From positions 1-25,710 of IMG/VR virus record IMGVR_UViG_3300046777_000068: a stretch of DNA of 25,710 nt, one strand, 5' to 3'. Shown here piece after piece: positions 2,860 to 23,236 of the stretch. Position numbers and translations under genes: made by a program. The notes beneath the pieces were generated by a model that saw only the letters and a program-made list of their open reading frames with translations, made no database searches and was not told the origin of the DNA. Numbering within the stretch: the first letter of the stretch is position 1; every line of letters starts with the position of its first letter. Source of the stretch: a virus.

Positions 2860-4179
2860 TCAAACGATCACCCAGCTGGCGCCGGATGGGATGGTGACGG
2901 TGGCGCCGGCGTTAATAGTGACAGGACCAGCAGACACAGCGTTCTTACCAGCTGTCAGTGTGTAACTGGTAGTTACAACTTGGTCGTTTTCAAGAAACAC
3001 CTGATCAGATCCACCACCCTTTGCGCCTCCGCCAATGGTTCCCCAGCTCGTGCCATTGTACCCTTCAAACTGGACAATGTTGGTGTTGAACCGCACGTAT
3101 CCAGTAGCCGGTACGGCATCACGTTGAGCGGTAGTACCAACAGGGATGGCAGCCGAACCAGTGTTTCCTGTTTTGTAAACGCTTTCGTCAATGACCTCCT
3201 GAAGCGCCCCCTGTACGTTGTTAGAGGCTACACTTCCGTACGGAGAAAAGCTGATACTGCTGGCATTACCAGGAACATACGCAGCAACCCACGCAGTTCC
3301 GGTAAACAGCTTCATGATGCCGTCTACGCTGTTGAAGTAAAGCGTACCAGCAACCAGGGGGTTTCCGTCGTTATCTACGGAAGGGTCGCTGGTCTTGGTA
3401 CCAAGGTACCGGTCATCAAAGCTGTCAAAGGCAGCCAGGGCAGAAGCAGCAGAACTGGCAGCAGAAGTAGCACTATTTCCAGCAGCTGTTGCGGAGGCCG
3501 AGGCAGCACTAGCACTGTTGGCAGCGTTGGTGGCGCTTGTCGCAGCAGAGCTTGCAGATCCGGCAGCAGCACTAGCAGACCCAGCAGCAGCAGACTGAGA
3601 AGCAGCCGCAGCAGAGGCCGACGAGGAGGCGCTAGAAGCACTGCTGGCGGCGTTGGAAGCAGAGGTAGAGGCGTTGCTGGCAGAGGTAGACGCAGCAGCG
3701 GCAGAGGCTGCAGCAGACACAGCAGACGCAGACACAGCGCCTACATTGCTGTCCACGTAGGCCTTGGTCGAGGCATCAGCGTTGTCGGTGGGAGTCCCAA
3801 GGTTGGTGATCTTGAACCCACCCATGTTGAGGATGCCACTCAGGGTACCGCCAAGGGTACTAAGTGCCCGAGCAAATACCTCCTGGGCAACGTACAGAAG
3901 CTGAGTAAAGTTCAGGTTCAGGTCAGTGGCTTTAATTGCCGACCCAGCAAAGAACGTAGCTTCCGACTCTTCGTTGTTGGTCTCACGGAAGATGATGATC
4001 GCAGCACCGTTTGCCGGAGCAGACAGGAACTGGATCGTGCTGTCGTTAACAAAGACAAAGGCGGTGGTGAGGACTCCGTTGATGGAGACCTTTACATCAG
4101 CCTCAGAAAGGTAAGAAAAAGACAGGGAATAGAGTGTCTGTACCCCATTCCCCGTGTAGGAGTTCTGAACAATGGCCAT
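2860..4179 (-). CDS. Tail fibre protein, T7 gp17-like N-terminus with Ala/Ser stalk
   Basis: This 439-aa protein has the T7 gp17-type tail-attachment domain at residues ~1-110 (SYTGNGVQTLYSLSFSYLSE, FRETNNEESEATFFAGSAIK). A GGFKITNLGTPTDNADASTK segment at ~120-140 is typical of fibres. A ~100-residue Ala/Ser-rich stalk (150-250) follows. The tip (251-439) includes DDRYLGTKTSDPSVDNDG, LYFNSVDGIMKLFTGTAW and a C-terminal beta-rich end (AGKNAVSAGPVTINAGATVT). It should trimerise and reach the host surface. At 439 aa it is shorter than T7 gp17 (553) and lacks a large receptor domain; the following genes may supply this. It starts 3 bp after the gp16-like stop. Confidence 0.92.
   Translation of the reverse strand: MAIVQNSYTGNGVQTLYSLSFSYLSEADVKVSINGVLTTAFVFVNDSTIQFLSAPANGAAIIIFRETNNEESEATFFAGSAIKATDLNLNFTQLLYVAQEVFARALSTLGGTLSGILNMGGFKITNLGTPTDNADASTKAYVDSNVGAVSASAVSAAASAAAASTSASNASTSASNAASSASSASSSASAAAASQSAAAGSASAAAGSASSAATSATNAANSASAASASATAAGNSATSAASSAASALAAFDSFDDRYLGTKTSDPSVDNDGNPLVAGTLYFNSVDGIMKLFTGTAWVAAYVPGNASSISFSPYGSVASNNVQGALQEVIDESVYKTGNTGSAAIPVGTTAQRDAVPATGYVRFNTNIVQFEGYNGTSWGTIGGGAKGGGSDQVFLENDQVVTTSYTLTAGKNAVSAGPVTINAGATVTIPSGASWVIV
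3430..3732 (-). repeat. Ala/Ser-rich stalk-coding repeat in the tail fibre gene
   Basis: About 100 codons read almost only Ala, Ser, Thr, Asn and Gly, in degenerate units such as SASAAAGSAS and SATNAANSASAA. Small residues recur in a heptad-like spacing, as expected for a thin trimeric coiled-coil or collagen-like stalk. Such tracts change length by slippage and recombination. Confidence 0.8.
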
Positions 4180-20504: not shown

Positions 20505-20708
20505 TTACAATTCCTTCTTTGATTTAAGGTACCTGATGATTTCAATACATCCAGCCATTCGACCAGCTTCCCACGTAGTCATTTCATGGTCAGGGTATTT
20601 GTCTGGATACATCTGATCTAGTTCAGCGATGAGCTTATCCAGATCGACGTTGCCCCCAACCACGCGGGCCAGGGGCAAGAGTTCAGGGTCAAGGTAGGGA
20701 TTAGCCAT
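20505..20708 (-). CDS. Conserved-looking 67-aa protein of unknown function
   Basis: I do not recognise this short protein. It begins at the ATG at 20708, which overlaps the end of the RNR beta gene (TATGGCTAA holds both the start and the upstream stop). An open frame continues upstream to 20798, but that part only shadows the beta gene. The product starts MANPYLDPELLPLARVVGG and contains a DxDKLIAEL helix, then PDKYPDHEMTTWEAGRMAG and a basic tail ending YLKSKKEL. It looks soluble and helical with no cysteine pair or membrane segment. It is the last gene of the nucleotide block and precedes the head genes by two bases, so it could belong to either set. Confidence 0.75.
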   Translation of the reverse strand: MANPYLDPELLPLARVVGGNVDLDKLIAELDQMYPDKYPDHEMTTWEAGRMAGCIEIIRYLKSKKEL

Positions 20709-21435
20709 ACTGTGGCAAATCGGTGTTGGCGGCCTCGAAGAACGCAGGCATCCGAGCACGCTGGGTGTCCGACAGACCAGGAGCCTTTCCACGCTCATAC
20801 AGCGAGTCAGACTGGCTCAGCCAGAAGTCCTTGTCCAGGTACTTGTTTTCGCTGGACTTGAGGCTGTCAACTACCCATCCCACAGTCGCTCGACGTAGGC
20901 GATTGAGGCTTGGTGTGGACTTGATGCCAAGCTCGGAGCAGACCATGCTGTGGATGGCGACGTGGGTTTGCTCGTCTCGGCTGATGTCTGCGGCTGTGGT
21001 GCGGATTCCGATGTCTCCATTGAACCGGTAGAAGGGAAGGAGGACGAAAAAGACACTACGCTCCAGGATTGCGGCCTTGAGGATCGGGTGTTCGGGGGCA
21101 TCCATCCAGGCCTTCAGGATGTGACGCCCTTCAGCTTCAGCTTTGGATTCGGTGCCATGAGCGGCGACCACATACTCCAAGGCTTGGTCGTGGCGCTCTT
21201 CATCCAGGATGTTGGACTGAAGGGCTTCCACCACACCAGGAGTCTTAGGCAGTTCCTTCTCAAGACCCTGCTTAAGGAACTCAGACACCGGCAGTTCCAG
21301 ATGACGGAGGGCAAGAGCCCGGTAGATCGACTCCTCAGAGCCGTCAACCAGCTTGCCACGTTGAACCGCAACTGGGGTCCATTTTCGCTTCCGCGACACC
21401 ACCTGGGTGTAAGGCGATTCAGTAATGGTCATCAT
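20701..21435 (-). CDS. nrdB: Class I ribonucleotide reductase, beta (radical) subunit, Tyr-less
   Basis: This is a 244-aa ferritin-like beta subunit that should generate the oxidant for the alpha subunit encoded just upstream. Metal-ligand pattern: an acidic residue on the first helix (E47 likely), E79-x-x-H82 (LDEERHDQ), E125 (ILERSVFF) and E155-x-x-H158 (RDEQTHVA). In E. coli the radical Tyr122 is four residues after H118; the matching residue here is L86, codon TTG at 21178-21180, with Y88 the nearest tyrosine. A classical tyrosyl radical is therefore not expected; a metal-based oxidant as in class Ic is one option (inference). The C-terminus (DLPQYG) keeps a Tyr that could serve as the Y356-like relay. 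Start: ATG at 21435, overlapping the alpha stop as ATGA; a second in-frame ATG follows at 21432. The protein is shorter than cellular NrdB (~375 aa). Confidence 0.85.
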   Translation of the reverse strand: MMTITESPYTQVVSRKRKWTPVAVQRGKLVDGSEESIYRALALRHLELPVSEFLKQGLEKELPKTPGVVEALQSNILDEERHDQALEYVVAAHGTESKAEAEGRHILKAWMDAPEHPILKAAILERSVFFVLLPFYRFNGDIGIRTTAADISRDEQTHVAIHSMVCSELGIKSTPSLNRLRRATVGWVVDSLKSSENKYLDKDFWLSQSDSLYERGKAPGLSDTQRARMPAFFEAANTDLPQYG

Positions 21436-22865
21436 TCAGCACAGGAAGAGCAAGAACCGTCAGTTGGACAGAAACCTTCGATCTCCTCGTCATCCTCAAA
21501 GGCAGACGTGTCGATCTCATCAAACTTGAAGAACTCGTGGAAGCTCTCGTTAAGGGCAGCCAGGGCATCATCCTTGGCTTGGGTGTCAGGCATCACCTGA
21601 AGGGCGTAGTACAGGCTGGTCTGAGGTGAAGCAAGCCACTTCTTCAGAAACTCCTTGTCGTAGGTAATCACGTCGCTCCAGCTGTTATAGCTGTAGCCAT
21701 GGAACAGTCCAGTGACCTGGTAAAGGCTCACGATTCCGTCTACGACTCGGTTGTAGTCCTCCCAGCCAACCTCTGCTGCGATCTCGACATCCGGCGGATA
21801 GTCATAGGACTGAACTCCAAACGTGCCAGAATCACGATCAACATGGCGACTGATAGGAGGAGCCAGCTCAGGGGTGGTAGTGTAGCCGCGCCGATCAGTG
21901 TACTGATAACTACAAGAAGCTGTAGGCGCGATAGCGAAAGCACGGCGCATCCCAGCCCGCTCAGCAACGTAAGCAGCATCCCAGATAGCTTGAGCCAGAC
22001 ACGAGGCCAGAAGGTCAGCTTTATTCTCGGGGTCAGGCGTCCCGTTTCTGTATCGGTCCAGGGCGTACCCGAACTCCTTATAGCTGACCTCGTTCTGCGC
22101 CAGGAAGTTTGCAAGACCCAGCAGCCCGAGCCCAACCTGCCGATCAACATCAGGCGAGAGATACTCTCCAGTCTCTCCAACTCCCGTGCGGCCGTGCAGT
22201 TCAATGAGTTCGGACATACCCTGGGTGAAAGCAGCAGAGAGATCCTGCGGCTCCACGGCGCCAAGGTTAATGTGCTGGAGAAGGCACGTTCCCCGCGATG
22301 GCAGATACACTTCCAGGCAGACGTTTCCGTAGATGCGTTTGCCATTCTGGTCGTAGCGGATTTTGTTTAGCCAGATGTCACCCTTTTTGATGCCGTCAAG
22401 AGTAGCCTCAATCAGTTCAGGACTGGCATCAGTAAGGAAGTTCCGGTCCACGTTCAGGCAACGTTTCACCCAAGGCAGTTCAGACCGCTTTGCCTCGATG
22501 AACTTAATTGCATCTGGGTGCGTGTAATCGAGGTGAATGACCACAGCGCCGTTCTTGTAGACCCCACCGCGGCGCAGGGTCTCGTTGAGGGCAGAGTAGA
22601 TTCTGGCAAACGACACAGGACCAGAGGCGGTCAGGCCTGCTCCGTTGTCGTGCCCCTCAGGGCGAAGCTTGCTCAGGTGGATGGCACACCCAGCACCATT
22701 GCGAAGGGCGTGAGAGGCAAAGCGCCACGAGGCCTCAATGCCTTCCGGTCCTTCCATGCTGTCCTCCACAACGAAGACAGTGCAGGACACGGGAAGCCGG
22801 CTGGTAGGGTTGTCGATCCAGTTCTGGACTCGGCCGGTGCGAGCGATCGGACTGGTGTTGGTCAT
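21432..22865 (-). CDS. nrdA: Class I ribonucleotide reductase, alpha (catalytic) subunit, compact form
   Basis: This is the catalytic subunit of ribonucleotide reductase, making dNDPs (or dNTPs) from ribonucleotides. At 477 aa it is far shorter than E. coli NrdA (761). The N-terminal ATP-cone is absent, so overall activity may not be under dATP feedback. Catalytic residues line up with E. coli: C28 (C225), N181, C183 as thiyl cysteine (C439), E185 (E441) and C194 (C462). The tyrosine pair Y419-Y420 matches Y730-Y731 of the long-range radical path; it marks class I and is not needed in class II. The tail CPTDGSCSSCAE supplies redox cysteines C466, C472 and C475. Cyanopodovirus RNRs were once called class II; I recall that P-SSP7 was reannotated as class I. 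It overlaps the genes on both sides by 4 bp. Confidence 0.93.
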   Translation of the reverse strand: MTNTSPIARTGRVQNWIDNPTSRLPVSCTVFVVEDSMEGPEGIEASWRFASHALRNGAGCAIHLSKLRPEGHDNGAGLTASGPVSFARIYSALNETLRRGGVYKNGAVVIHLDYTHPDAIKFIEAKRSELPWVKRCLNVDRNFLTDASPELIEATLDGIKKGDIWLNKIRYDQNGKRIYGNVCLEVYLPSRGTCLLQHINLGAVEPQDLSAAFTQGMSELIELHGRTGVGETGEYLSPDVDRQVGLGLLGLANFLAQNEVSYKEFGYALDRYRNGTPDPENKADLLASCLAQAIWDAAYVAERAGMRRAFAIAPTASCSYQYTDRRGYTTTPELAPPISRHVDRDSGTFGVQSYDYPPDVEIAAEVGWEDYNRVVDGIVSLYQVTGLFHGYSYNSWSDVITYDKEFLKKWLASPQTSLYYALQVMPDTQAKDDALAALNESFHEFFKFDEIDTSAFEDDEEIEGFCPTDGSCSSCAE

Positions 22866-23236
22866 AGGAGATCAGAAAGAATTGGGGGTTGGTAGTTGGG
22901 GCCCTTGAGGACTTTACCATCTTCTCGGCGAAGAGGCTTGCCGTCAACGAGCTTGGACATGTTGGACTCAAAGACCCGACGCATGGCCTCGTCTAGGTTC
23001 CACCCACGGGCAGCAGCGTACTGATAGCAGACAAAGACCAGATCCGAAAGCTCCTTTAACTGGTTCTCTTTTGAGCCACTATCCAGCTCAGTGAGGTACT
23101 CTTCACGCAGCTCACTGAACTCTTCTTCGATCAACTTGAACTGAAGCTCGTGAACAACTTCGTCCGTTGTGTTGATCGGTTGCTCCATGACCTGACGGAA
23201 GGTGATGGCCTGCTGGAGCAGTGAGGGGGAACTCAT
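22862..23236 (-). CDS. MazG-like nucleoside triphosphate pyrophosphohydrolase
   Basis: This is a 124-aa all-alpha NTP pyrophosphatase of the MazG/HisE type, which hydrolyses (d)NTPs to monophosphates and PPi. The Mg-binding signature is visible: E38-E39-x-x-E42 on the first helix and E62-x-x-D65 (ELSD) on the second. The C-terminal stretch (SNMSKLVDGKP, then RREDGKVLKGPNYQPP) is typical of phage MazG-like proteins. It is a single-domain form. The start ATG overlaps the DUF3310 stop (ATGA), and the TGA stop overlaps the RNR alpha start in the same way. Its place beside RNR fits dNTP pool control or house-cleaning. Cyanophage MazG has also been proposed to act on ppGpp-type alarmones, which the sequence alone cannot test. 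Confidence 0.87.
   Translation of the reverse strand: MSSPSLLQQAITFRQVMEQPINTTDEVVHELQFKLIEEEFSELREEYLTELDSGSKENQLKELSDLVFVCYQYAAARGWNLDEAMRRVFESNMSKLVDGKPLRREDGKVLKGPNYQPPILSDLL

Follow-up and report, generated by a model that had tools for sequence, protein, structure and literature searches.

The locus described here raises the question of how a ribonucleotide reductase (RNR) obtains its radical when the β subunit has no tyrosine at the usual radical site. It lies in a 25.7-kb uncultured virus record, the whole of which (25,710 nucleotides) was analysed and is referred to as the window. An earlier note on this DNA had drawn attention to the β gene at 20701..21435, in which a leucine codon occupies the position of Escherichia coli Tyr122. 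The ORF coordinates and residues are as that note gave them; the gene is on the minus strand, as are all features of the window given with coordinates below.

The α/β pair and its genomic setting

The gene order in the window is DNA polymerase, exonuclease, kinase-like ORF, nucleotide pyrophosphohydrolase, RNR α, RNR β, a small ORF, portal, head assembly, major capsid and tail. Both the order and the gene families are typical of a T7-like cyanopodovirus. The local order is closely similar in Syn5, SS120-1, P-SSP7, S-CBP4 and others; the nucleotide pyrophosphohydrolase (MazG-like; 22862..23236) lies upstream of α, and gene order comparison places it likewise in Syn5. No match was found for the whole window against phage records with megablast, or in a plasmid search.

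The α gene (21432..22865, 477 residues), which overlaps the start of the β gene by its last four bases, matches the class Ø α subunit of S-CBP4 (7urg) with an E value of 1.3e-202. Only PF02867 is matched in Pfam, and the protein is short and without an ATP cone. It contains the Y419-Y420 pair, C183, C28/C194, a C472-S-S-C475 tail and the finger loop NVCLE (in GNVCLEVYL), the loop reported for class Ø (PMC9669993). The tyrosine pair, which the earlier note had also read from the translation, is present in all 232 distinct α sequences.

The β gene encodes a ferritin-like protein of 244 residues, identified from the ORF translation, the PHROG match, a structural model and a fold search. It matches phrog_6799, an RNR β family, with an E value of 5e-116. 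It has no match in Pfam, including PF00268 (NrdB), which is weakly matched by 14 of 71 β relatives (best E value 0.0067). Relatives were drawn from annotated phages, IMG/VR and GTDB genomes, giving 239 distinct sequences; identity is at most 66% to the isolates found and 95% to the nearest viral contig.

By sequence, the α/β pair is a class Ø RNR of a T7-like cyanophage (Cyano SP, proposed subclass 'If'). The assignment draws on the similarity of α and on motifs, and every trait examined was found. With P-SSP7, Syn5 and S-CBP4 the α subunit shares its length, the YY pair, the NVCLE loop, a C-terminal Cys pair and the lack of an ATP cone. The β subunit shares its position directly downstream of α, a length of about 240 residues, E-E-H-E-E-H ligands with a D/D second sphere, Leu or Phe at the tyrosine site and an end one residue past the relay tyrosine. 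The window differs from these isolates only in sequence distance and in an α tail that is CXXC rather than CXC.

Much of this has been described before. The β subunit of P-SSP7 was identified and its missing tyrosine reported by Harrison et al. (2019; PMC6370689), who also tabulated the E-E-H-E-E-H ligands with their D/D second sphere and proposed the new subclass If (Cyano SP). Both the missing tyrosine and the short β are published (PMC6370689; Burnim et al., 2022, PMC9531940), and the tyrosine-less β is thus already known, from 2019 and 2022, as typical of the whole Cyano SP/class Ø family. The suspicion in the earlier note that cyanopodovirus RNRs might already be described was correct, and these papers cover the whole of its finding, including the unusual shortness of β. 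A 2026 preprint still refers to the group as biochemically uncharacterised (PMC12918982). We found no later biochemical study of class Ø in the open literature (subscription journals were mostly uncovered), and the papers found contain no metal, EPR or activity data for any class Ø member.

Metal ligands, position 86 and the relay

The first-shell ligands are E47 (21295..21297), E79 and H82 (E79-x-x-H82; 21190..21201), E125 (21061..21063) and E155 and H158 (E155-x-x-H158; 20962..20973), with the second-sphere residues D78 and D154 immediately before the two ExxH motifs. E79xxH82, E125 and E155xxH158, listed previously as ferritin-like ligands, were all found in the translation. That list had left out E47, a Glu as in classes Ic and Id, where classes Ia and Ib have Asp (ligand table in PMC6370689), and a residue that is invariant in all 234 relatives covering the position. 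All six ligands, D78 and D154 are invariant where covered in the 239-β alignment, which is the class Ø pattern. The gap between E125 and E155 had been counted as 30 residues; the two are indeed 30 positions apart, a distance fixed in 236 of the 236 relatives measured, and 29 residues lie between them.

Leu86 (TTG, CAA on the plus strand; 21178..21180) corresponds to E. coli Tyr122 and Chlamydia trachomatis Phe127, as judged from the translation, a profile alignment and the family alignment. For the mapping, a family profile was compared with all PDB sequences. The top three matches were to C. trachomatis R2c and were sub-threshold (E value about 0.2); this sub-threshold alignment pairs L86 with F127, H82 with H123 and Y88 with Y129. 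Of the 239 distinct β sequences, 220 have Leu at this position, 16 have Phe and three have a gap; the codons here are ordinary Leu and Phe codons. The alignment to F127 and the occurrence of tyrosine in none of 236 relatives bear out the earlier placement of L86 at the radical-tyrosine site. Sequencing error or chance at this codon was rejected because two base changes separate TTG from either Tyr codon and the relatives agree.

The residues of the putative radical relay are retained. Judged from sequence, β still has its four Glu and two His ligands and a C-terminal relay tyrosine, and α keeps its tyrosine pair, the thiyl-forming cysteine and the reducing cysteine pair. The C-terminal tyrosine of the earlier note is Y243 (20707..20709), invariant and penultimate, the protein ending Q-Y243-G244. 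Trp19 (21379..21381) is invariant and, from its position, probably the counterpart of E. coli W48; both W19 and W187 are invariant where covered. The assignment of the relay residues is probable, supported by their conservation and by the S-CBP4 α structure. The combination that had been noted for this one protein, a missing tyrosine store with ligands and relay residues kept, holds family-wide.

An AlphaFold2 model of β was built from 71 relatives, with six annotated-phage rows left out of the alignment (mean pLDDT 91.7, pTM 0.87). The ligands sit on predicted helices 34–58, 68–93, 117–139 and 142–169. A Foldseek search of the PDB returned mostly NrdB/NrdF proteins (probability about 1.0, best E value 1.4e-3), with C. 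trachomatis R2c and the class Id protein of Flavobacterium johnsoniae near the top; class Ie β subunits and a Prochlorococcus aldehyde-deformylating oxygenase were also among the matches. Kinship of β to class Ic in particular is at most weakly suggested, because the PDB sequence matches are sub-threshold and the best fold E value is 1.4e-3.

The source of the oxidant

The explanation that we consider likely as a whole is a class Ø RNR in which a metal-centred oxidant feeds a Trp/Tyr relay. O2 or a reduced oxygen species would oxidise the dimetal centre in β, and the oxidising equivalent would stay on the metal because no tyrosine adjoins the centre. It would then pass through W19/D154 to Y243, on to Y420 and Y419 of α and finally to C183, where ribonucleotide reduction would start. 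That the oxidant is metal-centred rather than a tyrosyl radical, as in class Ic, is probable. A Mn/Fe centre specifically is a lean and not a result, because the first-sphere ligands fit classes Ic and Id equally well, and we give it about an even chance.

The comparison with class Ic has two sides. Class Ic pairs Phe with Glu (PMC8463856); R2c has no tyrosine at the radical site (Phe127, here L86), a Glu as first ligand (here E47) and a tyrosine two residues further on (Y129, here Y88). However, R2c is about 100 residues longer, has a C-terminal binding tail and shows no significant sequence similarity to the window's β, in which the usual tail for binding α is missing. Its second sphere has Glu before the first ExxH, whereas the window's β has D78 (ligand table in PMC6370689). 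The resemblance to class Ic is one of chemistry only; the second-sphere Glu and NrdB membership are absent from the window's β.

A dimanganese centre activated by superoxide, as in class Id, is possible instead of Mn/Fe, if on the unlikely side. The first-sphere ligands are identical to those of the F. johnsoniae Mn2 protein, matching Ic and Id equally, and class Id β subunits are among the best fold matches; against this, class Id retains a tyrosine at the site (not radical-bearing) and has Cys/Ser in the second sphere (ligand table in PMC6370689). A rather unlikely extension is that class Ø β subunits use an undescribed kind of metal-centred oxidant, with a metal pair or activation route peculiar to them and determined by the second-sphere Asp and the Leu/Phe; if true, this would be the smallest class I-like radical generator.

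It is very improbable that another tyrosine carries the radical, the most plausible being Y88 (21172..21174), the nearest in sequence and, by profile and family alignment, the counterpart of C. trachomatis Y129. Y88 comes two residues after L86; 209 of 236 relatives have Tyr there, and Phe86 and Phe88 never occur together. However, 25 relatives have Phe and two have Asn at this position while keeping all ligands, and Y88 lies about 180° from E79 on a continuous helix (68–93, pLDDT about 97), whereas L86 faces the ligands, at 20° from E79 and 40° from H82; these angles are ideal-helix geometry and not measured distances. The only tyrosines present in every relative covering their position are Y9 and Y243, and Y38, Y136, Y199 and Y213 are variable. 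A radical on Y88 or another tyrosine, for which the earlier note had allowed, is thus disfavoured by variability and helix phase, and Y88 was rejected as the radical site. Open papers yielded nothing useful on Tyr129 and F127 of R2c.

A metal-free modified-residue centre is exceedingly unlikely and was rejected: class Ie β subunits do occur among the Foldseek matches, but carboxylate ligands are lost in class Ie, which depends on a tyrosine for DOPA, whereas here all six ligands are invariant and the tyrosine is absent. Equally hard to credit is a decaying β or a non-RNR protein such as a ferritin or oxygenase, for which the oxygenase fold match and the absence of a Pfam match would speak, since conservation reaches at least 99% at dozens of positions across the 239 relatives, the gene overlaps α, Y243 is invariant and phrog_6799 is an RNR β family.

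Relatives in other genomes and significance

Several features of the relatives deserve mention in their own right. A single-base difference at AAAAATTTTGG interrupts the β genes of S-CBP4 (locus L082, about 3080–3100) and P-GSP1 (L088, about 3082–3097), which lack one T that intact relatives carry there; the annotated protein thereby loses its C-terminal tyrosine. A programmed −1 frameshift was considered and rejected in favour of a probable sequencing error, because IMG/VR has the shifted form in only one contig, equal in length to the S-CBP4 record, versus 109 intact. A group I intron (RF00028, 86.5 bits) lies inside the β gene of a phage-type contig (L100, 4067–4345), between the codon for D154 and that for E155, both invariant residues. 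A class Ø β relative from an uncultured marine virus (BFVD A0A0F7LCH0) has 313 residues, about 70 above the family norm.

Of the 13 matches in bacterial or archaeal assemblies, 12 (L091–L098 and L100–L103) adjoin cyanopodovirus-like proteins, mostly portal or RNR α at roughly 65–85% identity, and also exonuclease and polymerase. The assemblies of the matches are labelled Planctomycetota, Dehalococcoidia, Euryarchaeota, Flavobacteriales and others, including a Prochlorococcus single cell. Because of these neighbours we regard the 12 'cellular' loci as phage contigs in bins. The exception (L099, 3926–4717) is an orphan class Ø-type β among cellular-looking genes of Calothrix membranacea FACHB-236, with all metal ligands, N88 and a PEYY end. 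No class Ø α and no match to PF02867 or PF00268 was found in this assembly, and a 79% identical copy of its β lies at the edge of a virus record (L252).

The window's member adds breadth to class Ø and raises no new question. In the family, for which a position ancestral to RNRs of classes I and II has been proposed, not one of 236 β subunits has tyrosine at the usual site, and a tyrosyl-radical mechanism there is accordingly very unlikely. Nearly all of the 'cellular' copies in this set are phage contigs, which bears on the true owner of the enzyme; the loci seen here suggest that class Ø members reported as 'bacterial' should undergo the same neighbour check.
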